From: Rathayibacter sp. VKM Ac-2879
Lineage (GTDB): Bacteria > Actinomycetota > Actinomycetes > Actinomycetales > Microbacteriaceae
Length of the DNA stretch: 64,000 nt
NCBI RefSeq assembly: GCF_015351245.1
Contig: NZ_JADKSO010000002.1
Coordinates: 744,001-808,000 of the forward strand
Direction: 5' to 3'
A model generated the notes under the pieces. The model was not told where the DNA came from, did no database searches, and was given only the letters and a program-made list of their open reading frames with translations. Of the stretch, positions 27,089-51,090 are shown piece after piece (positions within the stretch are counted from its first letter, which is position 1; each line of letters starts with the position of its first letter). The position numbers and the translations under genes were made by a program.

Positions 27089-27322
27089 TCAGGGCCTGAT
27101 CGACGTCCGAGCCGCCTCGCGAAGGCTCTTGGGCCTCAGATCCGTCCAGTGCTCCTCGACGAACGCCAAGCAAGCGGCGCGATCATCGCCGTCCTCGCCG
27201 CCGTAGACCTCGTGCCACCCCTCCGGGACAGGCGCAAAAGTCGGCCAGAGCGAATACTGCTCTTCGGCATTCATCAGAACGAAGAACTTTCCGGTCTCAT
27301 CATCGAATGGATTAGTGGACAT
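27089..27322 (-). CDS. mbtH: MbtH family NRPS accessory protein
   Basis: 77 residues, the usual length. MbtH proteins bind adenylation domains and are needed for their folding or activity. Signature residues are all present: NPFDDE at the start, [27 protein letters not shown] and [14 protein letters not shown]. Last gene of the leftward siderophore operon; its ATG lies inside the end of the FecE-type ATPase gene (11-nt overlap). Partners are expected to be the adenylation domains of the NRPSs at 37703 and 44016. Confidence 0.97.
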
Positions 27323-28166
27323 CTGTTTCTCCTCGGTGAGATAAAGGGGAGGGATCCGGCATCGAAGACCGACGCCGGCCGATGGGGAGGATGAGCGGGC
27401 ATCCGGAGACGGGATCGGGGATGACCTGCGCAGTCAGCCCGAAGACAGTCCTGAGCAGGTGTTCAGTGATCACGTCGCCCGGCGGGCCTTGCGCCGCGAT
27501 GGTGCCCTCATGGACGACGACGAGTTCGTCCGCGTAGCGGGCGGCAAGGTTGAGGTCGTGGATCACCATCACGATGGTTCGACCGAGGTCGACGCAGAGG
27601 TGATCGAGGAGATCGAGGACCTCGACGGAATGAGCGATGTCCAGATAGGTCGTGGGCTCATCCAGGAGCAGGACCTCGGTATCCTGCGCGAGGCTGAGCG
27701 CGATCCACGCCCGCTGTCGTTGACCGCCCGAGAGCGTCTGGACGTCGCGGTCGGCCAGGTCGCCGAGTCCCGTCAGGTCTAGAGCGGCGTTCACTGTGCT
27801 CTCGTCGTCGGCGCTCCACTGCCGAAACAGGGACTGATGCGGGTGCCGACCGCGAGAGACGAGTTCGCGGACGGTCATCCCCTCCGGCGCAGTAGGCGAT
27901 TGAGGCAGGAAAGACACCCTCGTTGCCAGCTCGCGCATCCTCATCTCGGAGAGAGACTTTCCCCCCAGGCTCACAGCACCCGCGGTCGGGGTCAGCAGGC
28001 GGGACAGGGTGCGTAGCAGAGTCGACTTCCCGCTGCCGTTGGGACCGACGATCGCCGTGACCGCGGCCGGACGAAGCGCAAGGTCGATCCCGTTCAGGAC
28101 CTCACGACCGGCATACCCGACCCGAAGGCCTGCTGCCTCCACCGTCAGTGCCTTCGAGTCCTTCAT
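27312..28166 (-). CDS. ferric siderophore ABC transporter ATPase (FecE-type)
   Basis: 284 residues from ATG 28166. Walker [16 protein letters not shown] near residue 40, Q-loop [16 protein letters not shown], signature [18 protein letters not shown], Walker [16 protein letters not shown]-loop [14 protein letters not shown]. The Q-loop/LSGGQ region and the TTYLDI form are typical of iron-siderophore importers (FecE/FepC/FhuC). Overlaps the upstream permease stop in ATGA. With the two FecCD permeases and the binding lipoprotein it completes an uptake system. Confidence 0.95.
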
Positions 28167-29203
28167 ACCTGACTCCTCACTCGCCTCAGCATGAGAACGA
28201 TCAACATCGGTCCGCCCACCATCGCGGTGAGGAGCCCGACAGACACGGCACTCGAGAACAGCGTGCGCGCCGCCAGATCGGCAGCCAGCACCAGAACCGC
28301 GCCGCACGCCGCCGAGCTGCCGAGAGGCGCGCCGGTCTCGCGGGTGAGGAGACGCGCCACCTGCGGCGACGCGAGGGCGACGAAGCCCAGGGGGCCCGCA
28401 GCACTGACGGCGACCGATGCTGCGACGACCGAGACGACGAGCAGTGCGACGAAGGTGCGATCGACAGCAACGCCGATGCCGTGCGCCACCTCCTCCCCGA
28501 GCTGCATGGCCCTCACCGAACGAGACATTGCCGCTGCAGCGAGCGCCGTGAGGACGAGGGCCGTGAGCAACGGGAGAAGACGGTCCGTGTGAGACGACAG
28601 ATCGCCCGTCAGCCACACCTGCGCCTGCATGACGTCGTAGGTCCCGCCGAAAACAAGGAGTCCCTGGAGGACGCCCACGAGAGCGGCGTTGACTCCGATG
28701 CCGACGAGAATCAGCCGGATCCCTCCGGTGGAGCCGCGCGAGATCGCGAACACCAGGGCGGCCGCCAGCGATCCACCGAGCACCGCTGCCAGCGGCAACG
28801 AGATCGTCAACGGCGCGTCGAAAACACGCCAGCCGAGGATGTAGACGCTCGCGGCTCCGGCGCTCGCGCCGCTCGTGATGCCGAGGATGTCTGGGCTCGC
28901 CAGCGGGTTACGGACGGCCGACTGCAGCAGTGCCCCCGAGATCGCTAGGGCCGCACCGGCGCCCGCACCGATGACGGCGCGTGGAAGCCTCAGGGCGAGC
29001 ACCTGATAGCGCACGGCCTGGCCACCTCCTCCGCCGAGGACCTCCGCCACCCTGATCGGAGACAGCCACGTGCTCCCCACGCTGATCGACACTCCGAACA
29101 GGACAACCGCGAGGACCACCAGCGCGGCGAAGACGACCATCGGTCGTGTCCGCCATCGCAGCGAGAAGCCGCCGGCACGCACAAGGAGCATTCCAGGAGT
29201 CAT
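28163..29203 (-). CDS. iron-siderophore ABC permease (FecCD family)
   Basis: 346 residues with about nine or ten membrane segments. FecCD/BtuC family landmarks: LRLPRAVIGAGAGAALAISG, LLQSAVRNPLASPDILGITS, the cytoplasmic coupling loop GEEVAHGIGVAVDR, and GPLGFVALASPQVARLLT. Pairs with the RDD-fused permease encoded just upstream to form the channel; start overlaps that gene's stop by 4 nt. Confidence 0.95.
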   Translation of the reverse strand: MTPGMLLVRAGGFSLRWRTRPMVVFAALVVLAVVLFGVSISVGSTWLSPIRVAEVLGGGGGQAVRYQVLALRLPRAVIGAGAGAALAISGALLQSAVRNPLASPDILGITSGASAGAASVYILGWRVFDAPLTISLPLAAVLGGSLAAALVFAISRGSTGGIRLILVGIGVNAALVGVLQGLLVFGGTYDVMQAQVWLTGDLSSHTDRLLPLLTALVLTALAAAAMSRSVRAMQLGEEVAHGIGVAVDRTFVALLVVSVVAASVAVSAAGPLGFVALASPQVARLLTRETGAPLGSSAACGAVLVLAADLAARTLFSSAVSVGLLTAMVGGPMLIVLMLRRVRSQV

Positions 29204-30552
29204 GCCCTCGCCGACTTCCCTCGAGCCAACGCGATGAACAGCGGTGCTCCGATCACGAGGAAGACAACACCGGCCGGGATCTCACCGGGGCGGGCGATGA
29301 GGCGTCCTCCGACATCGGCACACAAGAGTGCGGCGGCGCCGATCAGCGCCGAAGCGGGAAGCAGAACGCGGTAGTCGGAGCCGACGAGGACTCTCGCGGT
29401 ATGCGGCGCGATGAGCCCGAGGAAGGCGATCGGACCGCACATCGCCGTCGCCCCGCCGACGAGGATGCCGACCGCGAGAAGCCCCCCGACACGCGCGCGC
29501 CGCACGTCACTGCCCAGCGATGTCGCGACATCGTTGCCGAGGCTCAGCGCGTTCAGGGCGGGCGCGACCAGCACGGCCATGACGAGCCCCACCCCGACGG
29601 CCGAGAGCGGGATCACGTTCGCCTCGAGGGGACTGTCCGACAGCCCACCGATCATCCACGCGCGAAACGACTGCAGGACCGTCTGGTCGAGGAGCAGAAC
29701 GATCGCTGTGGCGCTGCCCAGCACCGACGACACCGCGGCCCCCACCAGCGGCAGTCCGATCAGGGTCGGCCCGACGACCTCGGCCAGGACGATCACGAGC
29801 GCGGTGACGAGCAGGGCGCCCACGAGCGCGAACACCGTGTATCCCGCCGGTGTCGTCAGCCCCAGCGAGATCGCGAGGACCGCCGCCACCGTCGCGCCGC
29901 GCGTGATGCCCATCAGGTCGGGGTCGGCAAGCGGATTGCGAGTCTGCCCCTGGATGACCGCCCCCGCGGTCCCGAGCGCCAGGCCCGCCATGACGGCCAT
30001 CACAGCGCGAGGGACGCGCTCCCGGATCACCAGATCGTTATAGGTGGCGAGCGAGGGGGAGACGAGCGCGTGCACCACCTCCGACAGCGTCACGTTCCTG
30101 ACGCCCACCGCGATCGCGATCAGTCCGAGCCCGATGACGATCAGCACGAGGACCGAGACAGTCCGCCAGGGGTGGCGGGGACGGGTGAGGAGCGCTCCGA
30201 CATCGACCTTCGCGCGCCGCAGCTCCGCGACAGAGCGCACCCCGTATCCGGGCGCCTCGAGGAGCCCGGCCGCTGCCATCCCCAGGCTCTGTCCGCGCCG
30301 CCGCCTCGTCGCGTTGAGGAGGATCAGCCCGGCGATCAGGACCACGCCGACGGCGCCGACGGCGAGCCGATCCGTTCGCCAGAACCCGCCCTCGTCGGGC
30401 AGGGAGAGCAGCAGCACCACGACCATCCCGGCGAGCGCGACGGGGAGCAGCACGTCGATGGCGGAGGCCGCGAAACGCTGAGCGTTTCGCGGCTCCACCG
30501 GAACGTGAGCTGGCCGAGGGGGCGCCGACGAGCCCAGACCGGCCAGGCTCAT
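29200..30552 (-). CDS. FecCD siderophore permease with N-terminal RDD domain
   Basis: 450 residues, about 110 longer than its family. The FecCD part is residues about 125-450: IRERVPRAVMAVMAGLALGT, IQGQTRNPLADPDLMGITRG, GNDVATSLGSDVRRARVG coupling loop, GPIAFLGLIAPHTARVL. The first 120 residues read as an RDD domain: RFAASAIDVLLP (Arg26, Asp33) opening a hydrophobic segment, a second segment LAVGAVGVVLIAGLILL, then RRRGQSLGMAAAGLLEAPGY, the conserved G-x-S-L-G RDD ending. RDD domains are usually separate small membrane proteins; a fusion to an importer subunit is unusual. Start ATG 30552. Confidence 0.88.
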   Translation of the reverse strand: MSLAGLGSSAPPRPAHVPVEPRNAQRFAASAIDVLLPVALAGMVVVLLLSLPDEGGFWRTDRLAVGAVGVVLIAGLILLNATRRRRGQSLGMAAAGLLEAPGYGVRSVAELRRAKVDVGALLTRPRHPWRTVSVLVLIVIGLGLIAIAVGVRNVTLSEVVHALVSPSLATYNDLVIRERVPRAVMAVMAGLALGTAGAVIQGQTRNPLADPDLMGITRGATVAAVLAISLGLTTPAGYTVFALVGALLVTALVIVLAEVVGPTLIGLPLVGAAVSSVLGSATAIVLLLDQTVLQSFRAWMIGGLSDSPLEANVIPLSAVGVGLVMAVLVAPALNALSLGNDVATSLGSDVRRARVGGLLAVGILVGGATAMCGPIAFLGLIAPHTARVLVGSDYRVLLPASALIGAAALLCADVGGRLIARPGEIPAGVVFLVIGAPLFIALARGKSARA

Positions 30553-30595
30553 GGCGTTCCCCGTTCCCGACGTCGCCCGGGAGACGGAATGGGCG

Positions 30596-31615
30596 TCATC
30601 CGTTCGCCGGCAGCTTGTCGAGGGCGGCGGTGACGCGCTCGATCTGCCCGGTGTAGCTCGCGTAATTGAAGGTGGCGTCCGTCGTCCAGTCGGCGACGTG
30701 GCCTCCAGCGACGGCCGTCAGGGTGCCGACGGTCGGGTGCTCCGCCTCGACCTGGGCCAGAGGCGTCGTCCATGCACGAGTGTCGTAGAGCAGCAGATCG
30801 GACTGGTAGTCGCCGGCGTTCTCCCAGCTCACCGGGCTGAACGAGCCTGATGTCTCGTCCTTCGCAACGGAGGACTTGCGAACGTCGAGGCCCCAGTCGG
30901 CGTAATCGAGGAGCTCGGCGAACTCGCCGGGAATCGCCACGTAGAAGAGGGTGGATGGCGCGACGGCGTAGGCGGTGACACCGGGGCGCTTCGACGTCGC
31001 CTCCCGGAATGCGGCGACGGCCTTGTCGTAGCCGGCCTTCTCGTCAGCGATGCTGCCCGAATCGACATCGGCGCCGAGCTTCTGCGCGAGGGCGCGCCAA
31101 TCGTCGAGCGAGGCCGATGCGCTCTTCTGCGCGGAAACGGTGATCATCGGCGCGACGGCGGCGATCTGCGTCGACACTTCCGCGTCCGTCGCGCCCAGCC
31201 CTCCGAGATAGTCGCCCGCATACCACCCGGTGATCACGAGCTCGGGCTCGAGCGAGACGAGCTTGTCGACGTTGACGTCCCCGTAGGTGACCCCGAGCGT
31301 CTCGATTCCGGTGAGATCGAGCCCGGCCAAGACGCCACTGGCCTCGGGCGCACTCGATCCCCAGACACCGACCGGACGGATCCCGTAGGGGATGAGCGCG
31401 GCGGCGGCCTGTTCGCTCATGACGATCTTCGTCGGTGTCGTGTCGAGATCGACGGTCTCACCGCGGGCATCCGTGTAGGTGAACGGCGCGCCGCTGGCGG
31501 ACGAGCTCGCGGCGTCAGGCGTGGTCTCGGCGGAGCACGCCGTCTGCGCGAGTGCAATCGTCGCCAGACACAGCACCGTGAGAAAATGCTTGCTCGTCTT
31601 CATTCCGGACTTCAT
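30596..31615 (-). CDS. siderophore-binding lipoprotein
   Basis: 339 residues from ATG 31615, with AGAGG about 10 nt upstream. Lipoprotein signal: KHFLTVLCLATIALAQTACS, with the modified Cys at about residue 26. The rest is the FecB/FepB periplasmic binding protein type II fold: FTYTDARGETVDLDTTPTKI opening, AAALIPYGIRPVGVWGSS, KLVSLEPELVITGWYAGDY, long connecting helix about 190-220, and DYQSDLLLYDTRAW in the second lobe. Expected to capture the ferric siderophore and pass it to the FecCD pair. 108 bp separate it from the exporter genes upstream. Confidence 0.93.
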   Translation of the reverse strand: MKSGMKTSKHFLTVLCLATIALAQTACSAETTPDAASSSASGAPFTYTDARGETVDLDTTPTKIVMSEQAAAALIPYGIRPVGVWGSSAPEASGVLAGLDLTGIETLGVTYGDVNVDKLVSLEPELVITGWYAGDYLGGLGATDAEVSTQIAAVAPMITVSAQKSASASLDDWRALAQKLGADVDSGSIADEKAGYDKAVAAFREATSKRPGVTAYAVAPSTLFYVAIPGEFAELLDYADWGLDVRKSSVAKDETSGSFSPVSWENAGDYQSDLLLYDTRAWTTPLAQVEAEHPTVGTLTAVAGGHVADWTTDATFNYASYTGQIERVTAALDKLPANG

Positions 31616-31722
31616 GTCGTTGCTACCTCTGTTTCGTGAATTCGGGATCATGGGGCGATGTGGTCGTCCGCCGGTCAGGGCAGGTCTTCTCGGCGAGCAC
31701 CCTGGGTCGTGGCGTTCGGACG

Positions 31723-33510
31723 TCAAGGGGGGACGTCCTGTGCGGCATCGGACGGCCCTCCACCTCCTCGCCACGCGTTCCACTGGCGTGCATAGATCCC
31801 CCCTGAGGCGATCAGTTCCTCATGGGTGCCGATCTCCACGATCCGGCCCGACGCCATGACCGCAACGGCGTCGGCTGCCGCGGCTTGGGACAGTCGATGC
31901 GCGACGATGAGCGTCGTCCGGCCCTTGGTCGCCGCGAGCGCGGACCGTTCGAGGGCGGCGGCGCCGGAGCTGCCCGCCTCCGCCGTCGCCTCGTCAAGGA
32001 TCGCCACATCGGGGTCCATGAGCACCAGCCGGGCCAGCGCGATCTGCTGGTGCTGCACTGTCGTCAGTCGATGATCGTGCCCGCCGACCCGGGTGTGCAG
32101 TCCCGCAGGCAAGGCGCGCACCCACTCGTCCGCGTCGACTGTCGCGAGAGCGCTCCAGACCGCGTCGTCGCTAGCGCCGGCGTCGGCGAGACGAAGGTCG
32201 TCGATGAGGGGCCCCGACACCACGTGCACGTCCTGGCTGATGACGGCGATCTTCGAGCGCAGAGCGTCGGTTCCGACGTCCGTGAGCCGGACGCCGCCCC
32301 ATCGGACACAGCCCGAGTCCGGTTCGATGGCGCCTGCGGCGACGAGCGCGGCGGTGGTCTTCCCCGCACCGGATGCGCCGACCAGAGCCAGTCTCGTCCC
32401 CGACGGAATCGTGAAGGAGACGTCGTGAAGCACGTCCTCGCCTGGCCGATAGGCGAACCGCACGCGGTCGACGGTCACGCTCCCGTCAGAGGGCGACGCG
32501 AGTGGCGGACGGTCGGCTATCGGCATCCCCACGACTCCCACCAATCTATTCAGCGATGCTCCTGCCGATTGCAGCTCGTCGAACAGGAAGAGAACAGTGC
32601 CGAGCGGAGTGAAGAGGCGATGGAACACCAAGACCGCCGTCGTGACCGCGCCGATGCTCACGGCATCGTTCGTGTACAGCGCAAACCCGATCACGAAGAG
32701 CACGGCCATTCCGCAGAATTCGGCGAGGTTCTCGCGGCCCACGAACCGCATCAGCAACCGGAACACGGATATCGAGAGCGCTTTCACACGCTCCGATTCC
32801 TGGCGAATGTCCTCGATCCTCGCCGACTGCATCTGGTAGGCGTGCACGGTCTCTACGCCATAGAGGCTGGAGGCAAGCGCTTCGGTGCGCGCGCCAGCGG
32901 CGGCGCGTTCCTCGGCGTACAACGGGGCACTGCGCGGCAGGTACCACCGCAGGGCCCACGCGTACAGCGGAAGAGTCAGCAGACCCGCCAGGCCCAACCG
33001 GTAGTCGACTCCGAACAAGGAGACGAGGGAGACGCCGATCAAGAGACTGGCGTTCAGCACGGCGGGGATCACCTCTCCGCTCGCGCGGGTGATCCGGGTG
33101 ATGTCGTCGCCGATGCGAGAGAGCACGTCGCCTCGGCCTGCGTCCTCGACGATCCGAAAGGGGAGGTCGAGCACGCGACGCAGGGCACTTTCGCGCAGCG
33201 TCGCGACGATGGTCTCGCCGAGCCGGCCGATGACGGAGGCACTCACGCCCGTGAGGGATCCGGCGGCCACGGCCGCGGTCGCGAGGAGTGCGACGAGCGG
33301 AACCACGCTCGAGACCGGTCGCCCGTCGACCGCGGCATCGATGAGCCACCCCATCGCATAGACGGGGAGAACAGCGGCGACCGCGGCGAGAGATCCCGCG
33401 GCGACCGCCGCCGCCACCAGAACGGGATGTCTCGTGATTCTCGTCGCGAGCCACCGGAGGGAGTCGTGGTGGCTCGCGACAGGAAGAGCGTCGGGCACGG
33501 AGCCGATCAT
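31723..33510 (-). CDS. ABC exporter half-transporter, active ATP site but degenerate signature
   Basis: 595 residues: six-helix membrane domain (about 25-320) then nucleotide-binding domain. Walker A VGASGAGKTTAALVAAG, Walker B PDVAILDEAT and H-loop IVAHRL are intact, but the ABC signature position reads HRLTTVQHQQIALARL, so LSGGQ has become LTTVQ. Its operon partner at 33507 has the opposite defects. The two therefore form a heterodimer of the IrtAB/TM287-288 sort with one working ATP site. In siderophore loci such exporters secrete the product or reduce/import it; secretion is the likelier role here because a complete FecCD importer is present (inference). Start overlaps the partner's stop in ATGA. 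Confidence 0.92.
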   Translation of the reverse strand: MIGSVPDALPVASHHDSLRWLATRITRHPVLVAAAVAAGSLAAVAAVLPVYAMGWLIDAAVDGRPVSSVVPLVALLATAAVAAGSLTGVSASVIGRLGETIVATLRESALRRVLDLPFRIVEDAGRGDVLSRIGDDITRITRASGEVIPAVLNASLLIGVSLVSLFGVDYRLGLAGLLTLPLYAWALRWYLPRSAPLYAEERAAAGARTEALASSLYGVETVHAYQMQSARIEDIRQESERVKALSISVFRLLMRFVGRENLAEFCGMAVLFVIGFALYTNDAVSIGAVTTAVLVFHRLFTPLGTVLFLFDELQSAGASLNRLVGVVGMPIADRPPLASPSDGSVTVDRVRFAYRPGEDVLHDVSFTIPSGTRLALVGASGAGKTTAALVAAGAIEPDSGCVRWGGVRLTDVGTDALRSKIAVISQDVHVVSGPLIDDLRLADAGASDDAVWSALATVDADEWVRALPAGLHTRVGGHDHRLTTVQHQQIALARLVLMDPDVAILDEATAEAGSSGAAALERSALAATKGRTTLIVAHRLSQAAAADAVAVMASGRIVEIGTHEELIASGGIYARQWNAWRGGGGPSDAAQDVPP

Positions 33511-35222
33511 CTCCTCACCGCCGCGGCGTACTGGGGGTCCTTCTCGAGGAGGTCCCGGTGTCTGCCTGCCGCAGCGACCCGACCGTTCCGGAGAACGACG
33601 ACTCGATCGGCCATCGCCAGCAGAGCCGGCGACCCGGTGATCACCACGGTCACCCGAGGAGCCGCGTCATCGACGGCTCGAAGTCCGCGGATGCCCTCGG
33701 CGATCCGCTGCTCCGTGACGGAGTCGACGGCCGTGGAAGGCTCATGCAAGACGAGCACGGGCGCAGCGGAGTACAGGGCTCGGGCGACCGCCAGGCGTTG
33801 ACGTTGGCCGCCGGAAAGATTGCGCCCACGGTCCGTCAGCCGATGGTCGAGGCCCGCCGGGAAGAGAACGACGACCTGATCGGCGGCGGAAGCGCGGAGG
33901 GCCTCGCTCAAGCGCACCTCGTCGACGGTCTCGGCGTCGGCGGTGACGTTGCTCCGGATGCTGCCGCTGAAGAGGTCCGCGTCATGCGGCTCCGCGACGT
34001 GGTGTCGGCGCAAGGCATCGACGGCCGCCGCGTGGGGGGCGACACCGCAGATCTCCACGGTCCCGTGGTAGGCCTCGGGAGCCGTGCGTCCGCTCAGGAT
34101 CGCCGCCAAGGCAACGCCGTCGGCGGAGTCGTGCGCGAACACCGCCGTGATCTCGGCCGGGCGCGCCTCGAAATCGAGCCCAGCGAGAGAGCCGTGGTGA
34201 ACGGCTCCGAGCCTAAGACGCGGCCGACCCTCGACGGGCGCTGACCCTCTCGGGAGCAGGGGCACGGCGGTGAGGACCTCCGCCACGCGTTCCGCCGACC
34301 CGCGTGCCTTCGCGGCGGCCGCAGGCAATCCGGACAGCGTGGTCAGCGGTTCGATGATGAACTGCGCAAGTCCGACGACGGTGACGAGCTCGCCGGTCGT
34401 GATGCGGCCCGTCAACGCATACCACCCCGCCGTCGAGGCGATCGCGGCGGCGGCCAACCCGCTCATGGTCACGGTCACCCCTCGCTGGACCGCCATCGAC
34501 GTGTTCGTCGACATGGCCGCCGAGAGCGCCAGCTGACTGGCGGAACGATAGCGCCCGAACGCAGCGGTTTCGGCTCCGATGCCTTTGATGGAGCGGAGAC
34601 CGGAGATCAGATCGCCGGCAAGTGCCGTCGCTTGGGCGAGACGTGACTGCTGCCGCACTGCGCGGGCGGTGATGAGGGGGGCAGCCAGGCGCGCGAGGAC
34701 GAAGAACAAGGGCGTCGCCACGAGGATGACGCTGCCGAGAGTGATGTCGACGACGACGAGCGCTGTCGCGGTGGCGATGATCGCCACTCCCGCCGCGATC
34801 ATCCTCGGGAACAAGTCGAGAAACCATGCCGCCTGTTCCGCGTCGGTGCTGGACACGGTGAGCAGTTCGCCGCGAGAGAGGTCGGTACGCATTCCATGCG
34901 GCGACAGTGCCTTCTCGGAGACCTCCATGCGCAGGCGGTGGGCCTCATCCTGTAGCGCACTGTTGAGCCTCCGCATGCCTGCCTGGTAGGACGCGGTGAT
35001 GACGACGAAGACGAGTGCCAGCGATAAGACCGCGCCGATGATGCCCGACACGTGACCCGGAGCGATTCCTCGGTCGATGAGGAAACCGATGACGACGGCG
35101 ACCGACGTCTCCCCCAGCTGATACAGACAGATCAGAACGGTGCCGAGCACGACATCGGCCCGGTGCCGACTGATCGTGCGCCTGACGATGTCCTTCCCGG
35201 AGCGAACAGCGGACGGGGTCAC
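33507..35222 (-). CDS. ABC exporter half-transporter lacking a Walker A lysine
   Basis: 571 residues, membrane domain about 20-310 then nucleotide-binding domain. The signature [16 protein letters not shown] is perfect, but where Walker A should be the sequence is ITAVFAHDSADGVALAAILS, with no GxxGxGK, and Walker B reads APVLVLHEPSTAVD with His for the usual Asp. This subunit cannot bind ATP normally but gives its LSGGQ to the partner's intact site. GTG start 35222 overlaps the formyltransferase stop (GTGA). Exports or handles the siderophore together with 31723-33510. Confidence 0.9.
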   Translation of the reverse strand: MTPSAVRSGKDIVRRTISRHRADVVLGTVLICLYQLGETSVAVVIGFLIDRGIAPGHVSGIIGAVLSLALVFVVITASYQAGMRRLNSALQDEAHRLRMEVSEKALSPHGMRTDLSRGELLTVSSTDAEQAAWFLDLFPRMIAAGVAIIATATALVVVDITLGSVILVATPLFFVLARLAAPLITARAVRQQSRLAQATALAGDLISGLRSIKGIGAETAAFGRYRSASQLALSAAMSTNTSMAVQRGVTVTMSGLAAAAIASTAGWYALTGRITTGELVTVVGLAQFIIEPLTTLSGLPAAAAKARGSAERVAEVLTAVPLLPRGSAPVEGRPRLRLGAVHHGSLAGLDFEARPAEITAVFAHDSADGVALAAILSGRTAPEAYHGTVEICGVAPHAAAVDALRRHHVAEPHDADLFSGSIRSNVTADAETVDEVRLSEALRASAADQVVVLFPAGLDHRLTDRGRNLSGGQRQRLAVARALYSAAPVLVLHEPSTAVDSVTEQRIAEGIRGLRAVDDAAPRVTVVITGSPALLAMADRVVVLRNGRVAAAGRHRDLLEKDPQYAAAVRR

Positions 35223-36163: not shown

Positions 36164-36242
36164 CCGCGCCCCACTCTCCGACATCGACAGCCCCGCCTGC
36201 TGGCGGGCCGCCACAAGCATCGGCAGCCTACCCAGGGGATCC

Positions 36243-36261: not shown

Positions 36262-36267
36262 CAAAGT

Positions 36268-43700: not shown

Positions 43701-44014
43701 TCTCCGCACCTCTCGCCATCGCCGACGCCGAGTCAGCGCAGCGGGCGCTCTCGACGGTCGCCGCGGCCCGACCCGAGTTACGTGTGCGTCTCGACCGCAG
43801 TCGCGCTCGGCTCTGGCGGGCGTTCCAGTTGAAGGAGCTTCCTGCGGGGAACACCGTCGACGTCGCCGCGGGTCGACTCGCCGTCATCGACACGTCACCG
43901 AGCGGGCAGCGGCTCGTAGTCCATCGGATGGCATTGCTCGCCGACGAGAAGCGAAGCCTGCAACGCCTCATCGAGGACATCCACGACGCAGCACGCCTCA
44001 GAAAGGGAGAGTGA
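37703..44014 (+). CDS. non-ribosomal peptide synthetase, C-A-T-C-A-T plus truncated E
   Basis: 2103 residues, GTG start with AGGAG 8 nt upstream. Domains: C1 about 1-400 (HHVLVDG at 133), A1 about 410-915 (YVIFTSGSTGAPKG at 562), T1 about 925-990 (FFARGGDSL, Ser about 962), C2 about 1018-1430 (HHSATDE: HH and D kept, last Gly lost), A2 about 1430-1880, T2 about 1890-1955 (FFALGGDSISAI, Ser about 1922), then about 115 residues of an epimerization/condensation N-terminal piece ending at VVHRMALLADE. Pocket residues read by eye: A1 DINYWGGIGK, which I recall as the formyl-hydroxyornithine code of coelichelin-type NRPSs; A2 DVWHVSLVDK, a serine code. The LGGDSI form of T2 is the form seen before E domains, fitting the truncated E. 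One base separates its stop from the next NRPS. Confidence 0.93.
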   Translation: MPLATTLTPAQRAVWVASEIDPDNASDFHLGWTTRFADVHDLARLVDAIERVLRKDQRLSETILLEEEAPRWAACAAPARPATIDLRAAQDPDLAVAERVARVRERVALGTGGPLHSHEILLVPGGYVWAQAYHHVLVDGRSIHELTRRVLADLDGTAESPDDLPSAPPSSIDTGSWDSVISALDTVDDGLAERPTRVIESVSIDLDPDMVASFPALAARCGLSVGRVVAGLLSAYTMTVRGPGPHAVRLAVAGAGPRHAITMRSAVLPLVTTVDHETTVDTHLRAFDDALRSGLRRHSADPDAAVRALRARFGESVLTAPGINVMLGPDRPDGVLRSAWVGPSTDLELVAEGEVGLGRLRIVVRGRADRTELASHAAALSAFLSSAVRAPEGVLDGHRLVHPAERRLLLTEQNDTGRCLSDRDVVDMVFARADQAPASVAVIDGDRAVDYRHLLGAATHIARRLRDEFGAVAESVIAVDMHRSAEMVASLLGVLMAGAAFVPLDPAWPQRRRSTVLADSGARAVLVGPGAGGSTGLPSHHVNLDEVDPPADVVSRDAESLAYVIFTSGSTGAPKGAMIRHSAIASRMRWQIEDVLGFGADDASLFKAPLSFDISINEVLLPLCAGGTVVVARDGEEREPERLLHLIAEHGVTFTYLVASMLDVLLDTDAETDAPQLGGLRHVWCGGELLTPELFDRFRLQLPAATMYHGYGPAEATIGVSHIVYGRDGVRSTTSIGRPNPGCQLYVLDRALRPVPAGMGGELYAAGDLLGRGYVNAPALTAARFIANPFHDRHDPASTERLYRTGDRARWNGDELEFLGRADHQVKIGGMRVELEEIERTIAAAPGVRACVAIVRAACVHAYVVPASGASASEVEASALRQAAENLPRHMVPTWITALATLPTTANGKVDRTALPEPKRTPPGTHELSAVEQRIAGAFAEVLGVDIAEIGPTSGFFARGGDSLAAVRVAHRLSRALGRRVPSRAVFEHPTLAGLSEFVARAEHSTSAVEIVASDGPATMQASPGQRRMWLSSQLATAAASYTVPLAFLFEREPDRDVLQAALAATTRRHPALRTLLFPEGGAVTAQRLAADDPRSAPRLELATDPDEFVRRPFDLASTPPIRAALTRVPDGWLFLLAIHHSATDEASEPVLLHTLSEAVRARQDGAAPRGETAAVLHAPSGESAADALARLGPLPDAADIPGWRSLPAGFGRAGRTRARTLTGPSVDALRHRRTDASVFELALRAVASAVERLGGPSSMLIAAPVARTTPDDGVVGCNVTTTLFAVGRDSELRGQIVSALDACADIADLVSAAPELRDRAAPRLMVVHQSRRLDRLVLGEHVGTRVPITTGTAKFDATVTVAEVGDDVTVELEYAVEAIDADEADRFLRHVCAALCSPDTLSDLALDEVDTATAVLLEGPDEIEAGHSRTLTDLVASGASEEAHRIAGALAAEGIGPGSVVGVCAARSARQVDLVHAVVLAGAAYVPIDPAWPAARRGAVVTDSGADLVLEDAPRASTAPTTSPHPDDAAYVLFTSGSTGRPKGVVVSHRAIVNRLLAAPDLHGITADDVILYKTPFTFDVSLWELFLPAIVGARQAIAPPDAHRDPSATAAAIVDARATVVHFVPSVLASFLDYLSGAPEVARAVARSVRLVVCSGEALTAHHLRQFSRVLPQVRVDNLYGPTEAAVDVTAAIDVSDTTPIGIGLPFPGVSCRILNRRLRPVVPGAAGDLYLSGVQLARGYSHRPALTAERFVADPFVVGARMYDTGDRARQRPDGTIEYLGRRDNQVKVGGQRIELGEVESALTSAPGVESAAAFVVDGTVVAVYTGRAESDAVRSHAAGVVPSALVPARLTAVPSLPVTPHGKLDRASLPMLDQGPTVVGGRAPESPTETALCEVFADALGAASAPANVDFFALGGDSISAIAVVTAAHRRGLAISVIDLFEARTVEALAARCAPLRAHASKPAAADASATAEPVPVPAAIASAKRDGTDIDAMTVSAPLAIADAESAQRALSTVAAARPELRVRLDRSRARLWRAFQLKELPAGNTVDVAAGRLAVIDTSPSGQRLVVHRMALLADEKRSLQRLIEDIHDAARLRKGE

Positions 44015-44015: not shown

Positions 44016-47000
44016 ATGAGCGCCAATCGAGACGCCGTCCTCGCACGTGGAGCGCGCGAGCGCATGCTTTTCCTCGCCGAGTTCGAGGAGTCGCCGAACA
44101 CCTACGCGATGCCCGTCGTGTTGAGGCTGGTCGCAGGCCACCTCGACGTGGACGTGTTCACGGCAGCCTTTCGAGATGTCGCCACGCATCACGTGAGCCT
44201 GCGGACAGCGTTTTCCCAGACGGCCGAGGGTTGGACCGAGCAGGTGCGAGAGGCCACCGACGTGCCGGTTCTCGACCTCTCCGAGCAGGCCTGGGACGGC
44301 ACGCTTCCGGTCGCGCCCGATCCCACGCGGGACGTGCCGTCCGCCGCCGCCGTCTACTCCGGCCACGTCGTCATCGTGATCCACCACGTCGCGGCCGACG
44401 GACGATCGGTGCACACGGTCCTCGACGACCTCGAGCACGCCTACTCGCGTCGACTCGTCGGGGACGCTCCCTCCTGGACTCGCCCCGCGAGCGACGTCGA
44501 CCCGCCGCACGAGCCGGCCGGTCGCCTTGCGGAGGCGTTCGCCGAGCTGCCGGCCGTCACGGCGCTCCCCACGGACCGTCCACGTCAGGCTTCGCCGAGC
44601 TCGCACGCCGCCGTGGCAGAACAGCGTCTTCCCGAGTGGACGGCCCGCGCCGTGGCAGAAACGTCCGGGCGCCTGGGAGCGTCCCGTCTCATGCTGCTGC
44701 AGGCCGCCGTCGCCCTGGCTCTGCGCGCTCACGGCGCAGGCGACCGCGTCCCGGTCGGCATGGCGGCCGACCTCCGCGGTGACGAGGAGGCGGGAGTGGG
44801 CCTGTTCCTGAACACCATCGTCGCTTTCACCGAACTGAACGGTGCCCTGACGGTGGGCGACGTGATCTCACGGGTCAGGACGTGCGCGCTCGACGCGTGG
44901 GAGCGACGCGCCGTGCCGTTCGATGAACTGGTCGCGGAGGTCGCTCCTCCCCGACAGCCCGGTGTGCACCCGCTCTTCCAGGTGATGATCGCCGACGTCG
45001 ACCGTCGAACGAGACGCGTCCACCTCGGTGACGTCACGGCCGAGCTGCGCCACGACGCGGAGCCGACCGCCAAGTTCGACCTCACCTTCGCCATCGGAGA
45101 GGACGACCGAGGCCTCGTGCTCGACGTGCTGTACCGCACCGAGATCTTCGACCCGGAGACCGCCGCCGGGCTGCTCGAGTCGGTGGTTCTCGCGCTGGTG
45201 GCCCTGACCGGAAACCCCTCCCTCGTCGTCGACGAACTCGCCCTGACCCGGTCGTCGGGAGGCCGGCCTGCCCTGTCCCCGCGGAGCGACGAGTTCAGCT
45301 CTCGACGTGTCAGCCTTCCCCGCCATCACCTCGCCGCCGCGCTGGTGAGTCTGTACGTCTCGAGCGACAGCGTCGGTACCCGCCGGGACGATGATCGGTA
45401 TGTGCCGCTGGAACTCGGCGAGATCCTCGATGCGGCGGACGTGACCGACGGCATGCGGCTGCCGGACACCACGAGAGGACGGCCCGTCATCGCCGCGATC
45501 TCGGGCGAAGACGTGCTGCTGAGGGCGGCCTCCGACGTGATCGACGACGAGTCGTGGCCCGCGCTGCTCGCCGCCCTGTCCGAAGGCGTTCCGCTCGGGA
45601 CGAGCGACGCCGCCGACTACACGGAGGCTCTCCTCCGCCGCGCCGCTGATCTGGAGATCATCGACTCCGCCGAGTCGTGGCTCGACGTTCTGGAGACGAC
45701 GACCGCGTTCGTCGAGACGGGCCGCGCCTCCACCCCGACGTCTGATGCGACCGCCTCCGCCGACATGGGCGGGGCGCCTGCGTCCGTGACGTGGCTTCGC
45801 GGCGCGGTGGTGGCGGCAGTGGTCGATGTCGTCGACGCGCCGAGACGACTGATGGTCAGCGAGCCCGACCGGGACGAGGTCGCTCACGCCTCTGCCGTCG
45901 GCCACCGACGTCGCGTCTTCCCTGTCTTCGTTCACGACGACGGAACGATCGTCCAACCGAACGCCCTCGCCGCGCGCGACTACCTCCTTGCCGGGACCCT
46001 CAGCACACATACCCCCGGGGTGTTCGACGAGGTGGCCGAACCGGACCTCTTCGTCGACATCCACATGTCCGACCGGCCCGTCGCCCACCGCCCGGGGCAC
46101 ATCGCCGTCACCGCGTGCATCGTCGAAGATCGCTGGCAAATCACCGTGTCGGGCCTCCCGGACGCGCAGGCCGTCGCCGACTCGATAGCGCAGCAACGGA
46201 TCCCGGACGGGCCGCCGAGCACGATCACCGCGATCACCCGCCCCGCCCGCGCACAGACGGACGATGCGGCGAGAATCGGTGCCGCCGCGATTCGCCGGAT
46301 CGAGCGGACGGCCGGCCGGCTGCGTGCCGTGTACCCGGCGACCGCGCTGCAAGAAGGACTGCTGTTCCACCGCGACCTGTCCGGCGACACGGACGTGTAC
46401 ATCTCGCAGACGATCACGGAACTGACCGGAACCCTCGACGTGGCAGCCCTTCGCGCTGCCGCGGCACGGATGATCGAACGCCATCCGCACGTGGCGGGGC
46501 ACTTCCGTCGAGTCGGCGAGCGCACGGTGCTCGTCGTCCCACGCTCCCTGAACATCGAGTGGGAGGTGCGCCGCGGTGACGATCCCGAGACGTTCATTTC
46601 AGAGCAACGCCAGAGGGGCTTCGACGGAGACGGGCCGCTCCTCCGATTCGGTCTCCTCACCGGCTCCGACGGCGGACAGCACACCTGGGTTCTCACGGTC
46701 GAGCACTCGGTGCTCGACGGGTGGTCCCTCTGGCGTCTGCTGCGCGGCATCCTGGACGAGTACACGCGCCCGGGAGCGGTCGACGAGAGCGAGGCCCCTC
46801 CCTATTCGGCATACACCTCGTGGCTCGCAGGTCAGGACCTCGCGGCGGCACGTGCATCGTGGGGCGGCGCGCTGGAGGGGATCGAGGGGCCGACCCTCGT
46901 CGCCGAGCCCGAACGCACGGGGACCAGCCCCGACGATCGACGCTCCGTCGACCACACCATCCTCCTCGAGCCGGCCCTCACGGAGCGGCTGAGGCGGCGG

Positions 47001-50000
47001 GGAGTCGCCTCCCGGACACCGTTGAGTGCCGTCTACGAACTCGCGTGGGCGCTCGCTGTGCGGTACGAGACGGGAGCGGACGATGTCGTCTTCGGCACCG
47101 TCACCTCCGGCAGGCCGCCGGAGATCCCAGGAATCGACGATCTCCTGGGTCTGCTCTTCAACACCGTGCCCGTTCGTGTGCGGTTCCGGCCGGGCGGGGA
47201 CGTGCAGACTCACCTCGACGAGCTGACGCTGTTCCGACGGGTCATGCTCGCCCACCCCTACGTCCCCCTCTCGGAGATCCTCGCCACGTCGGGACATCGC
47301 GAGCTGTTCGACACCTTGTTCGTGTTCCAGAACATCCCGGTCTCCCCCGCCGGCGAGCGGCTGGGCCGCGACGGTGGGCTGAGCCAGCGCGGGCAGACCG
47401 TCCGCGACGCTACCCACTATCCGTTGACGGTGGTCGTCAACCCGGGTGACGGACGTGCCGGCGCGAAGATCCGCGTCATGTTCCGGCCGGGGGCCTGGGC
47501 TGACGAAAACGTCGCGCGGCGGACGGCCGAGCGGATCGTCGCCGCGTTCCGCCGGGCGCTCGACAGGATCGCCGACCACGTCGGCCCGATGGCCACTCTG
47601 GATGTCCGCGCGGGAGGCGAGGACGCTTCCGGCCCCCTGCGTGGGGCCGCCATCCTGTCCGAGGACGAGGGCCTGCTCGGCTCGACCGTGTGGGAACTCC
47701 TCGTTCGGCGCGCTCGTCTCGACCCGCACGGGCTCGCGGTCGTCGCGGGTCCGACCCGCTGGAGCTTCGAGGATCTCGTGCGTCGCTCGACGAGCCTGGC
47801 GGCGGCCCTGCAGGCCGACGGCATCGGGCCCGAATCACGGGTTGCGCTGTATCTGCCGCGTGACGAACGGATGATCGTCGCGCTGTTCGCCGTGTTCGCT
47901 GCGCACGCCGCCTACGTGCCCATCGATCCGACCGTGCCCGGCATCCGGGTCGCGGAGATCCTTGCGGAGGCATCGCCACACGTGGTCGTCGTCGACCAGT
48001 CCCTCGCTGGCGCGGTCCCGACGGCCTACCGGACCCTGGCCCCGGACGCGGTGGTCGATCGTCCGCTCGTCGAGCCCGCGCGACACCTCGACTCGCTCGC
48101 GTACGTCATTTTCACCTCGGGTTCCACCGGCACGCCGAAGGGGGTCGCCGTCCCCTATCGCGGGCTGACGAACATGTTCGTCAATCATCGGGCCGAGATC
48201 TTCACGCCCGTCGTTGCCGCCGCCGGCGGCCGCCGCCTCGCCATCGCGCATACGACCTCGTTCGCCTTCGACGCATCCTGGGAGCAGCTGCTGTGGCTTC
48301 TCGAGGGGCACAGCGTCCATGTCATCGACGACGACATGCGAAGGGATCCCCGCGCGCTCCTCGAGTACTACGACGAGAACCGCATCGACGGCTTCGACGT
48401 GACCCCCAGCTACGGCCAGGTCCTCGTGGAGGAGGGGCTGCTCACGCGAGAACGCTGCGTCGACCCCACCGCGGACGGCACGGGTGTGGTCTTCGTCTCG
48501 CTCGGGGGCGAAGCGGTGCCCGACGACCTGTGGTCGGCGCTCCGGAACGCGCCGGGAGTCGGCGGCTACAACCTGTATGGGCCGACCGAGTACACGATCA
48601 ACGCGCTCGGCGCCGACGTCGCCGAGCGCGCAACGTCGACGGTCGGACGACCCATTGCGGGCACCGCGGCGTATGTGCTCGACCGGAGTCTGCAGCCAGT
48701 CCGCGCGGGCGTCGCCGGCGAGCTGTATCTCTCCGGCGTCGGTCTCGCGCGAGGCTATTTGGGGCGAAGCGATGCGACGTCGGAGCGTTTCATCGCCGAC
48801 CCATTCGGGGCACCGGGCGGCCGGATGTACCGTACCGGCGACATCGTCGTGGTAGGTGCCGATGGTCTGCTCAGCTACCTCGGGCGCGGCGACGATCAGG
48901 TCAAGATCCGAGGCCACCGTGTGGAGCCTGCCGAAGTCGCTTCTGCGATCACTGCTCTCGACGGAGTACGGCGATCGGCACTCGTGCCGGTCCGCGGAGA
49001 TCGAGGCACCGAGCTAGCCGCCTACGTGGTGGCGGAGCCGGCGAACCGTTCCGTGTCGGCGCCGGAGATCCTCGGCGCTCTTCGCTCGACCCTCCCCGAC
49101 TACCTTGTTCCGCGTTCCGTCACTCTCGTCGACGAGCTTCCGCTGACGGTGAACGGCAAGCTCGACCTGCGCGCGCTCCCCACGCCCGAGCGCGAGGCGA
49201 CGGAGAAGCAGCAGCCGATCGGCGATGTGGAGTACTTGATCGCGGAGGCGATCTCGGACGTTCTCGGAGTGGGCGAGATCGGACGCGACGAGGATTTCTT
49301 CCTGCTCGGCGGACACTCCCTCCTTGCCGTGCGCGTCGTCTCCCGGCTGCGGTCGTCATCGGGGCTGGATCTGAGCGTTCGCGACCTGTACGGCGCGCCG
49401 ACGGTGGCGGGGCTGGCGCGTGCGGCGGCTGGCGATCACAGCGAGGGCATGTTCGCTCCCGTGCTGGAGCTGCGAGAAGGCGACGGTCCTGCCGTGTTCT
49501 GTCTGCAGCCGGCGGGCGGGCTCGGGTGGGCGTACGCCGGACTCTGCCGCCACCTCGACCCGGGCTACGCGGTGTACGCGCTCCAGGATCCCGCCCTGTC
49601 TGGCGGGCCGGAACGAGATTCGGTCGAGTCCCTCGTGTCAGACCAGGTGGAACGGATCCGAGCGATCCGTCCTACTGGTCCCTACCACCTGCTCGGCTGG
49701 TCGTTCGGCGGGCAACTCGCTCACGCCATTGCTGCCCAGCTCGGAGAAGACGTCGCATCGGTGGTGCTCCTCGATAGCTACGCGGACGGGGCGAGTGACG
49801 AGGTCGATGCACCACTCGACGCGATGGTCGCGGGGTTCGTGGCCTCTCTCGCGACCGACCCCGTGCTCGCCGACCTCGATGACACCACTCGAGCGCGCCT
49901 GACCTCCACCTTCGAACGACACCTGCGACTGTCGATACCCCCGTCTGTGGGCTCGATTCCCGGTGATGCGCTGCTGGTCGCGGCGACTCGTGGGATCGAC

Positions 50001-50171
50001 TCCGATACAGCCGCTCGCCGCGACGCCGACTGGCGAGCACGCATCGCCGGCACATTGCGAGTGGAACAGGTCGATCTCGACCACGCGGGGCTCGGTCGCG
50101 CCGCGAACTGGGAGGTGTTCGGGCCTGTGGTTGCGCGGTGGATCGAAGACAGCCAGCAGGTTCCGAGGTGA
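44016..50171 (+). CDS. non-ribosomal peptide synthetase, C-(decayed E)-C-A-T-TE
   Basis: 2051 residues. Domains: C3 about 1-420 (HHVAADG at 123); a region about 430-765 that reads as a decayed epimerization domain, with ASDVIDDESW at 504 where HHxxxDG should be; C4 about 768-1200 with EHSVLDGWS at 895 (first His replaced by Glu, second His kept); A3 about 1220-1725; T3 (FFLLGGHSLL, Ser about 1768); thioesterase about 1805-2051 with GWSFGG (nucleophile about 1895), Asp in LLDSYADG and His in DLDHAG. A3 pocket read by eye is DAEDSGLINK, close to the hydroxyornithine code DMENLGLINK. C3 has no A or T of its own. Final module and chain release of the siderophore; follows the first NRPS by 1 nt. 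Confidence 0.92.
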   Translation: MSANRDAVLARGARERMLFLAEFEESPNTYAMPVVLRLVAGHLDVDVFTAAFRDVATHHVSLRTAFSQTAEGWTEQVREATDVPVLDLSEQAWDGTLPVAPDPTRDVPSAAAVYSGHVVIVIHHVAADGRSVHTVLDDLEHAYSRRLVGDAPSWTRPASDVDPPHEPAGRLAEAFAELPAVTALPTDRPRQASPSSHAAVAEQRLPEWTARAVAETSGRLGASRLMLLQAAVALALRAHGAGDRVPVGMAADLRGDEEAGVGLFLNTIVAFTELNGALTVGDVISRVRTCALDAWERRAVPFDELVAEVAPPRQPGVHPLFQVMIADVDRRTRRVHLGDVTAELRHDAEPTAKFDLTFAIGEDDRGLVLDVLYRTEIFDPETAAGLLESVVLALVALTGNPSLVVDELALTRSSGGRPALSPRSDEFSSRRVSLPRHHLAAALVSLYVSSDSVGTRRDDDRYVPLELGEILDAADVTDGMRLPDTTRGRPVIAAISGEDVLLRAASDVIDDESWPALLAALSEGVPLGTSDAADYTEALLRRAADLEIIDSAESWLDVLETTTAFVETGRASTPTSDATASADMGGAPASVTWLRGAVVAAVVDVVDAPRRLMVSEPDRDEVAHASAVGHRRRVFPVFVHDDGTIVQPNALAARDYLLAGTLSTHTPGVFDEVAEPDLFVDIHMSDRPVAHRPGHIAVTACIVEDRWQITVSGLPDAQAVADSIAQQRIPDGPPSTITAITRPARAQTDDAARIGAAAIRRIERTAGRLRAVYPATALQEGLLFHRDLSGDTDVYISQTITELTGTLDVAALRAAAARMIERHPHVAGHFRRVGERTVLVVPRSLNIEWEVRRGDDPETFISEQRQRGFDGDGPLLRFGLLTGSDGGQHTWVLTVEHSVLDGWSLWRLLRGILDEYTRPGAVDESEAPPYSAYTSWLAGQDLAAARASWGGALEGIEGPTLVAEPERTGTSPDDRRSVDHTILLEPALTERLRRRGVASRTPLSAVYELAWALAVRYETGADDVVFGTVTSGRPPEIPGIDDLLGLLFNTVPVRVRFRPGGDVQTHLDELTLFRRVMLAHPYVPLSEILATSGHRELFDTLFVFQNIPVSPAGERLGRDGGLSQRGQTVRDATHYPLTVVVNPGDGRAGAKIRVMFRPGAWADENVARRTAERIVAAFRRALDRIADHVGPMATLDVRAGGEDASGPLRGAAILSEDEGLLGSTVWELLVRRARLDPHGLAVVAGPTRWSFEDLVRRSTSLAAALQADGIGPESRVALYLPRDERMIVALFAVFAAHAAYVPIDPTVPGIRVAEILAEASPHVVVVDQSLAGAVPTAYRTLAPDAVVDRPLVEPARHLDSLAYVIFTSGSTGTPKGVAVPYRGLTNMFVNHRAEIFTPVVAAAGGRRLAIAHTTSFAFDASWEQLLWLLEGHSVHVIDDDMRRDPRALLEYYDENRIDGFDVTPSYGQVLVEEGLLTRERCVDPTADGTGVVFVSLGGEAVPDDLWSALRNAPGVGGYNLYGPTEYTINALGADVAERATSTVGRPIAGTAAYVLDRSLQPVRAGVAGELYLSGVGLARGYLGRSDATSERFIADPFGAPGGRMYRTGDIVVVGADGLLSYLGRGDDQVKIRGHRVEPAEVASAITALDGVRRSALVPVRGDRGTELAAYVVAEPANRSVSAPEILGALRSTLPDYLVPRSVTLVDELPLTVNGKLDLRALPTPEREATEKQQPIGDVEYLIAEAISDVLGVGEIGRDEDFFLLGGHSLLAVRVVSRLRSSSGLDLSVRDLYGAPTVAGLARAAAGDHSEGMFAPVLELREGDGPAVFCLQPAGGLGWAYAGLCRHLDPGYAVYALQDPALSGGPERDSVESLVSDQVERIRAIRPTGPYHLLGWSFGGQLAHAIAAQLGEDVASVVLLDSYADGASDEVDAPLDAMVAGFVASLATDPVLADLDDTTRARLTSTFERHLRLSIPPSVGSIPGDALLVAATRGIDSDTAARRDADWRARIAGTLRVEQVDLDHAGLGRAANWEVFGPVVARWIEDSQQVPR

Positions 50172-50185
50172 CCCCCGCAGCGTGC

Positions 50186-50851
50186 TCAGCACAGTGCGAG
50201 AGCGGCTGATGCGGCCCCGGGAACGGTGAGCGGAGAGAGGCTCAGCGGTCGCGCCTCCGGCGAGTCGAAGCGATGCACTCGACAGCCGTCAAGTTCCAGC
50301 GTGAGCGGGTCGATGGCGAAACCGAACCCGAGTGCTTTGAGGACGGCTTCCTTGCGGGTGAAGAGGACGGCGGCATCGCGCGGGGTACTCACGCCGAGGA
50401 GCTCTCGCGGGGTGAAGACGTGAGAGAGGACCTCTCGGTCGAGGGGGTCGAACGCAGCGTGCGCTTCGACATCGATGCCGACCTGCGCGCCGTGTGCGAA
50501 CGCGGCGACGACCCAGGAGCGGCTGTGCGACAGCGAGACGGACGGGAGGTTCCGCGATCCGGACGACCGCAGCACGGGCTTCCACTCGCCGGCCGTGTCA
50601 CGGCGGCGGACGAGGCGCACCTCGGACAGCGGCACACCGATCGACCTCATCTGATCGGCGACGAGGAGGCGCGCGGTGACGAACCGGCGCGCGTCGTCCT
50701 CGTTCCGGAAGGCCGTGAGCCGGGTCCGGTCGTCGTCGGTGAGTGGCAGCCAGTCCGGTGGAGCAGCAGGTGCGAGTTCGGTCGAGATCCGCACCGTGAC
50801 GTCCACGTCGCGACCACCCGGCACCGGCAGGCATCTCGTCTCGACACTCAC
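50186..50851 (-). CDS. 4'-phosphopantetheinyl transferase (Sfp type)
   Basis: 221 residues. Loads the phosphopantetheine arm of CoA on T domains. Mg/CoA motifs: VGIDVEAHAAF near residue 124 and FTRKEAVLKALGFG near 164 (usual WxxKEA), with SVSLSHSRSWVVAAF before them. GTG start 50851 overlaps the stop of a small GNAT fragment (GTGA). Convergent with the NRPS operon, whose three T domains are its obvious clients; it may also serve other carrier proteins. Confidence 0.93.
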   Translation of the reverse strand: MSVETRCLPVPGGRDVDVTVRISTELAPAAPPDWLPLTDDDRTRLTAFRNEDDARRFVTARLLVADQMRSIGVPLSEVRLVRRRDTAGEWKPVLRSSGSRNLPSVSLSHSRSWVVAAFAHGAQVGIDVEAHAAFDPLDREVLSHVFTPRELLGVSTPRDAAVLFTRKEAVLKALGFGFAIDPLTLELDGCRVHRFDSPEARPLSLSPLTVPGAASAALALC

Positions 50852-51090
50852 GGTCTGCGGACGCCGATCGTCTGGGCTCCGACTCTCTGCCCCTTCTGCT
50901 CCACGATCCAGCTCTGGCCGCCGAGAGCCCTTTTCCGGGTGGTCTCCGCGTCCTGGTCGACGGCGGTGTAGTTCAGCCCCATCGCACCGAGTTCGGCATA
51001 CGCGCCATGCAGGAACTCCGTCAGCGCGACAGCACCGTCGGAGTCGAACAGTCGCACCGCGATAGTCGGATCCACCCCGCTATTCAACAC
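50848..51090 (-). CDS. N-terminal fragment of a GNAT acetyltransferase
   Basis: 80 residues. The sequence fits the first half of a GNAT domain: VALTEFLHGAYAELGAMGLN, YTAVDQDAETTRKRALGG, then WIVEQKGQRVGAQTIGV (beta-strands 2-3). It stops before the acetyl-CoA loop (Q/RxxGxG/A), so it cannot be a normal enzyme. It either is a remnant whose reading frame now serves to couple PPTase translation, or a small protein of its own. Confidence 0.55.
   Translation of the reverse strand: MLNSGVDPTIAVRLFDSDGAVALTEFLHGAYAELGAMGLNYTAVDQDAETTRKRALGGQSWIVEQKGQRVGAQTIGVRRP

Follow-up and report, generated by a model that had tools for sequence, protein, structure and literature searches.

A siderophore locus in Rathayibacter sp. 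VKM Ac-2879

The 64,000-nucleotide stretch of the Rathayibacter sp. VKM Ac-2879 genome analysed here (contig NZ_JADKSO010000002.1, positions 744,001 to 808,000 of the forward strand; the whole stretch is referred to as the window) carries a siderophore locus at 27089-50851. Its minus-strand genes, from mbtH to an N-formyltransferase gene (fmt), are followed on the plus strand by genes for an N-monooxygenase (mox) and two nonribosomal peptide synthetases (NRPSs), and then by a minus-strand gene for a 4'-phosphopantetheinyl transferase (PPTase). With high though not complete confidence, we read it as an NRPS siderophore locus, probably repressed by iron, which assembles formyl-hydroxyornithine (fhOrn), serine and hydroxyornithine (hOrn) and is equipped for export of the product and re-import of its ferric form. 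All of these genes, together with a heterodimeric exporter and a FecBCDE importer, had been named in an earlier note made from the sequence alone, and each was recovered here by Pfam matches or, for MbtH, by similarity to YbdZ. The interval given in that note, 27089-51090, holds except for its last 240 bases, which lie outside the locus in a minus-strand open reading frame (ORF) of 80 amino acids (50848-51090); this ORF has no Pfam match; by eye, it resembles the N-terminal portion of a GNAT-family acetyltransferase.

The leftmost gene encodes an MbtH-like NRPS accessory protein (27089-27322, minus strand, as are all genes up to fmt; 39% identity to Escherichia coli YbdZ, E = 4.9e-17). The ferric-siderophore importer comprises a FecE-type ATPase (27312-28166; ABC_tran, 7.6e-33; best NCBIfam match FecE, under its cut-off), two FecCD permeases (28163-29203 and 29200-30552; PF01032, 9.5e-71 and 6.8e-77, respectively) and a FecB-type siderophore-binding lipoprotein (30596-31618; Peripla_BP_2, 8.4e-11). 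Next come halves B (31723-33510) and A (33507-35222) of an ABC exporter, each with ABC_membrane and ABC_tran matches, and fmt (35219-36175; Formyl_trans_N/C), the presumed substrate of which is hydroxyornithine; the starts of the ATPase, lipoprotein and fmt genes were picked by conservation. On the plus strand, mox, of the SidA/PvdA family (36320-37645; PF13434, 2.8e-94), precedes the genes for NRPS1 (37703-44014; 2103 amino acids) and NRPS2 (44016-50171; 2051 amino acids), and the PPTase gene (50186-50851, minus strand; ACPS, 1.4e-11) closes the locus. The combination characteristic of hydroxamate NRPS clusters, an N-hydroxylating monooxygenase, an NRPS and ferric-siderophore-type import genes, is thus present in full. 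Homologues in a CchH-like cluster of Nonomuraea are 50% (mox), 61% (fmt) and 40% and 47% (exporter halves) identical.

Two adjacent DtxR-type iron-box-like sites (36242-36282) occupy the divergent fmt/mox promoter. Using a DtxR-type IUPAC pattern with up to two mismatches, we found three matches in the 64 kb, all at 36244-36280, against 0.05 expected, and box-like sites stand in the equivalent place between fmt and mox in all five clusters that include this promoter. The iron boxes announced in the earlier note do exist, but they are confined to this one promoter region. To judge from these sites, the fmt/mox promoter is likely to be under iron control.

Monooxygenase and adenylation domain specificity

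The monooxygenase displays Lys81 within SFLKDL, Asn254 within YANRIF, the NYS loop at residues 284-286 within TNYS, and GAGQSA; the motifs of ornithine N5-monooxygenases (Lys, Asn, NYS loop, GxGxxN and GxGQSA) are all there. According to PMC12498188, the Lys and Asn are common to enzymes for ornithine and for lysine, substitutions of the NYS loop prevail among those for lysine and diamines, and the FAD and NADPH motifs deviate in the MbtG/MbsG/NbtG clade. Because the window enzyme combines the NYS loop with canonical motifs, from which the MbtG clade deviates, we keep the prediction that it is of the ornithine type, with good but not full confidence.

Three adenylation (A) domains are encoded, all on the plus strand: A1 (38981-40468), A2 (41963-43372) and A3 (47682-49205). 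Their ten pocket positions were marked by hand following the GrsA numbering, and the corresponding positions of other proteins were read via alignment. The resulting codes, DINYWGGIGK, DVWHVSLVDK and DAEDSGLINK, reproduce those of the earlier note and are identical in the four complete copies of the locus (the window, G001, G003 and G280) despite 76-82% identity of the domains. As a control, the identical script was run on EntF of E. coli K-12, annotated as serine-activating, and read DVWHFSLVDK, which we take to be the EntF serine code; A2 agrees with it at 9 of 10 positions. An NRPS of Nonomuraea gerenzanensis with the domain order of CchH, used as a layout reference, has the codes DINYWGGIGK, DFWNIGMVHK and DMENLGLINK, so that, comparing codes only, A1 equals the first at 10 of 10 positions and A3 the third at 7 of 10. 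The exact A3 code recurs in the NRPS AM571_RS20660 of Rhizobium etli 8C-3, with 57% identity between the A domains; the gene table available for that cluster (PLSDB, incomplete) lists an N-monooxygenase and no formyltransferase. The codes, the EntF control, the Nonomuraea NRPS and the R. etli domain together support fhOrn, serine and hOrn as the predicted monomers, which is the set proposed earlier.

Domain organization of the two NRPSs

By Pfam and motifs, the order of condensation (C), A, thiolation (T) and other domains is C1-A1-T1-C2-A2-T2-stub in NRPS1 and C3-E°-C4-A3-T3-TE in NRPS2, where E° stands for an epimerisation-type domain without HHxxxDG and its catalytic histidines, and TE for a thioesterase. 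The C domains were classified in a FastTree phylogeny of 33 condensation-type domains, of which 20 were picked by motif from eight loci, 12 came from three of the four complete cassettes and one was the E° of R. etli; the G003 cassette and the window E° were left out, domains truncated by the end of a contig or ORF were dropped, and labels were given by context. C1 (37703-38947; HHVLVDGRS) is starter-like and joins the EntF and Tsukamurella N-terminal C domains in one group (support 0.971), on a long branch. C2 (40739-41947; HHSATDEAS), likewise on a long branch, falls on the LCL side of the tree. The idea that its HHxxxDE renders C2 inactive was dropped, as NRPSs of Pseudonocardia and Embleya have C domains with HHxxxDE/DD motifs. 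C3 (44016-45260; HHVAADGRS) is of the LCL type by motif and tree, pairs with C3 of R. etli on the LCL side (support 0.970) and keeps HHVAADG in all four complete copies, and C4 (46308-47645; EHSVLDGWS) is of the DCL type (clade support 0.999). The Pfam scan of whole NRPS2 gave three Condensation stretches, the best one alone being placed, and neither NRPS has a Pfam match to a methyltransferase family. The terminal TE (49461-50168; GWSFGG; PF00975, 6.5e-22) shares 29% identity with that of EntF. All these domains are encoded on the plus strand.

E° (45252-46250, plus strand) separates C3 from C4, and NRPS1 ends in a C-terminal stub of 128 amino acids (43628-44011, plus strand) that is weakly similar to the N-lobe of an epimerisation (E) domain (hhalign E = 0.0043, probability 3.3%). 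The HHxxxDGxSW motif of an intact E domain occurs in neither NRPS in any of the four complete copies. Over 235 columns, the window E° shares 31% identity with its counterpart in the R. etli NRPS (E = 2e-16, the database being that one sequence); for the R. etli E°, in turn, alignment to seven E domains reaches 97.7% probability, and in the tree it stands beside the six E domains (0.983). Direct hhalign comparison of the window E° with E domains was weak (E = 0.029), setting ESW of E° opposite VSW of the E domains, and gave nothing against C domains. Foldseek, run with a structure model of low confidence (mean pLDDT 48.1), returned 490 PDB matches at E ≤ 10, four of them at E ≤ 0.001, with a top E of 4.9e-5 and TM-scores ≤ 0.25 among the matches listed; judged by title, the best 50 of the 490 are C/E-fold domains or proteins holding them, including TycB3(E), consistent with a predicted fold of this kind. 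Excised E° and stub have no condensation-type Pfam match and no PDB sequence match, a single STAS_2 match of the stub (E = 0.042) falling under the cut-off. Neither matched the plasmid collection, a negative that is unreliable because that collection holds the R. etli homologue, which surfaced with the low-complexity filter off.

These unusual parts may be relics. We also consider, tentatively and as rather unlikely, that C3-E° is the remnant of a C-A-T-E module, one that has lost its A and T domains but still works, C3 taking a second fhOrn from T1 and E° serving as a platform. If so, the assembly line would insert a residue that has neither an A nor a T domain of its own, in a layout that the rhizobial NRPS also has. 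The C-E°-C arrangement would inform the workings of iterative hydroxamate assembly lines.

Relatives and distribution

A scan of genome contigs with the monooxygenase recovered four loci, in Microbacterium testaceum NBRC 12675, a Microbacterium metagenome-assembled genome, Rathayibacter tanaceti and, more distantly (44%), Actinomadura. The order from mbtH to nrps2 is kept in both Microbacterium loci, in R. tanaceti and in G280, a member of the R. tanaceti genus group, with ~62-82% identity over the best tblastn stretches. It is whole in three other genomes; in R. tanaceti, contig ends truncate it, so that of nrps1 just the beginning and of nrps2 just a portion are present. The closest copies of the window cassette are those of Microbacteriaceae. 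Four scans for the monooxygenase at E ≤ 1e-130 were positive for 2 of the 366 genomes in the Microbacterium genus group, 2 of the 15 in the G280 genus group, 2 of 249 sampled from the family and 1 of 396 sampled from the order; these genome sets overlap, and two of the four counts are lower bounds, at most four candidates per genome having been scored in those scans. With an E° profile, again scoring at most four candidates per genome, at least one of the 396 genomes sampled from the phylum was positive, namely G001, itself a carrier of the cassette. The PPTase gene was not found in the examined stretches of the other four genomes. By eye, the two Microbacterium genomes have downstream neighbours in common, and in the Rathayibacter pair genes for a TetR regulator and an EngA-like GTPase adjoin the nrps2 end in G280 and the mbtH end in R. 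tanaceti. Such a distribution and such neighbours would fit a mobile or often-lost cassette.

Proposed pathway and product

The monooxygenase would hydroxylate ornithine to N5-hydroxyornithine, part of which the formyltransferase would formylate; the two NRPSs, with MbtH and the PPTase, would join fhOrn, serine and hOrn, and the heterodimeric ABC pair would export the peptide, FecBCDE re-importing its ferric form. Because three A domains supply just two ornithine-derived units, module 1 may be used twice, yielding a hexadentate tetrapeptide, for example fhOrn-Ser-fhOrn-hOrn. Release by the TE with the last residue cyclised would give a desmethyl-albisporachelin-like compound, C20H35N7O10 (computed [M+H]+ 534.2518); the alternative, a hydrolysed linear or coelichelin-type form, would be C20H37N7O11 (computed [M+H]+ 552.2624). 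We favour the double use of module 1, at roughly an even chance, because the albisporachelin backbone exists and because the three modules of CchH yield a tetrapeptide, iterative use having been reported for coelichelin (PMC9854754; its residue list being inconsistent, we rely on that paper for iteration, for the E domains and for CchJ as a separate protein alone).

The NRPS pair has only three A and three T domains, as would suit a strictly colinear, tetradentate tripeptide, fhOrn-Ser-(cyclo)hOrn ([M+H]+ 376.1827 if cyclised, 394.1932 otherwise), holding one formyl-hydroxamate and one hydroxyornithine, with C3 and E° as relics. A hydroxamate that is only tetradentate would be expected to bind iron less strongly, and the preserved HHVAADG of C3 and the reported iterative case of coelichelin (PMC9854754) likewise speak against this product; we regard the tripeptide as possible but improbable.

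The place of C1 among starter-position domains bears on two further products. In the first, our main rival to the uncapped tetrapeptide, C1 acetylates the first fhOrn, the residues otherwise being two fhOrn, serine and hOrn, to give foroxymithine or an isomer (C22H37N7O11, which we take to be the foroxymithine formula; [M+H]+ 576.2624). There is a parallel in albachelin, the first residue of which is N-alpha-acetylated (PMC6151521) and the NRPS of which likewise starts C/A/T (PMC4599437), and a GNAT gene (51342-52037) is near. That gene is outside the locus, however, inspection by eye of the ORFs downstream in three relatives, where no family search was made, revealed no obvious acetyltransferase, and C1 sits on a long branch, leaving acetylation a minority possibility. 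In the second, C1 would add an aryl acid to make a catecholate-capped mixed siderophore, in keeping with its grouping with EntF and Tsukamurella and with the presence, in two of the four cassette genomes (G001 and G003), of a gene resembling aryl-AMP ligases that shares 46-49% identity with the one of Tsukamurella. Pfam matches revealed no aryl-acid genes among the genes of the locus, and the two Rathayibacter-group genomes lack a ligase this close, their best matches reaching 31-32%. The 20 kb around each of the two ligases gave, at E ≤ 1e-4, nothing similar to the remaining Tsukamurella proteins for dihydroxybenzoate, carrier, MbtH, uptake and NRPS functions, save NRPS matches to the ligase itself; isochorismate-synthase matches reach no more than 38-43% in all four genomes, as a menaquinone enzyme could give. 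We tested this option and set it aside as highly improbable.

Several observations weigh against an iron-regulated locus making a peptide of fhOrn, serine and hOrn. The assignments of A1 to fhOrn and A3 to hOrn are our assumption, drawn from the literature and context, and the A3 code departs from DMENLGLINK at 3 of 10 positions. C4, as a DCL-type domain, would call for a D donor, yet the locus has no intact E domain. The promoter evidence is mixed: against the excess of IUPAC pattern matches, the full 19-mer consensus has no match in the window at up to three mismatches, and a loose score (≥13 of 19) gives four window matches, on both strands, which is not above mononucleotide shuffles (mean 3.4). 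Finally, the monooxygenase finds its best PDB sequence match in a chain that bears the name lysine monooxygenase MbtG (418.7 bits, compared with 324.9 for KtzI and 244.1 for PvdA), as would be expected for a lysine-based siderophore of hydroxylysine and formyl-hydroxylysine. The label may be automatic, because that chain itself shows the NYS loop and canonical motifs; the window enzyme has the same loop and the canonical FAD and NADPH motifs from which the MbtG/MbsG/NbtG clade deviates (PMC12498188), and the A1 code is that of the CchH-like Nonomuraea NRPS. A lysine-based product is thus very unlikely, and we retain the ornithine-derived tetrapeptide as our preferred product.

Genomic surroundings

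A Pfam scan took in 30 of the ORFs in the flanks. Adjoining mbtH is a plus-strand gene (25907-26956) for a protein with a ricin-type beta-trefoil lectin domain and, by eye, a signal-peptide-like start. On the minus strand at 18039-23603, PADLOC identified JetA, JetB and JetC of a Wadjet-type defence system. JetD was not recognised: beyond JetC, the minus-strand ORFs 16503-17987 and 15002-16756 have no PADLOC match, and 13122-15056 and others were outside the PADLOC scan. The gene beyond JetA has a PMT_2 Pfam match. Towards the end of the window where GC is lower (0.60-0.62), a minus-strand open frame of 1678 amino acids (58692-63728) has no Pfam match at E ≤ 1e-5.

Comparison with known systems

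Orphan siderophore clusters are common, and we found no open-access paper that ties the present architecture to a product, nor any on A-domain code strings with formyl-hydroxyornithine or on a nonribosomal-peptide siderophore of Rathayibacter. The locus resembles the coelichelin (cch) cluster in fmt, the ornithine monooxygenase, MbtH, the importer and ABC exporters, and in the A-domain order fhOrn-x-hOrn, the A1 and A3 codes being of the fhOrn and hOrn type by code only. Foroxymithine of Streptomyces has the same monomers but is acetylated and ends in a diketopiperazine.

CchH is a single protein of the order A/T/E-C/A(thr)/T/E-C/A/T (PMC5932044), and the coelichelin thioesterase is encoded by a separate gene, cchJ (PMC9854754). 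In contrast, the window locus has two NRPS proteins in place of a single three-module NRPS without TE, a serine code in place of a threonine code in A2, no intact E domain in modules 1 and 2 or elsewhere, an N-terminal C domain, E° and the stub, and a TE in cis. The departure from coelichelin is therefore larger than the earlier note had claimed; its two product readings, a distinct hydroxamate and foroxymithine-like chemistry, are both compatible with the present findings. By these features the locus is not a coelichelin cluster, though it would work like one.

A further chemical match, one that the earlier note did not name, is albisporachelin of Amycolatopsis albispora, an all-L N-Me-fhOrn-Ser-fhOrn-cyclo-N-Me-hOrn (PMC6024995) that provides a precedent without D residues. 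Its composition of fhOrn, Ser, fhOrn and cyclo-hOrn fits the predicted monomer set; it is N-methylated, whereas the window NRPSs lack a methyltransferase match, and the comparison is one of chemistry, PMC6024995 giving no gene cluster. In domain order, the closest likeness is AM571_RS20660 on plasmid pRsp8C3a of R. etli 8C-3, which also runs C-E°-C-A(DAEDSGLINK)-T but belongs to a salicylate cluster and ends, by eye, in a reductase-like region rather than a TE. That salicylate-hydroxamate NRPS cluster (L030, 6239-24671) also contains a stand-alone A domain with a threonine-like code and split condensation-domain genes.

Few siderophore products of Microbacterium have been assigned; a 70-genome survey states that it had no information on NRPS-siderophore structures (PMC7438953). 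What the present analysis adds is a defined cluster with a predicted mass and, in M. testaceum NBRC 12675, a named host that carries the same cassette. On these comparisons, the window locus is credibly a variant of a well-known siderophore type, serine-containing and with rearranged NRPSs.

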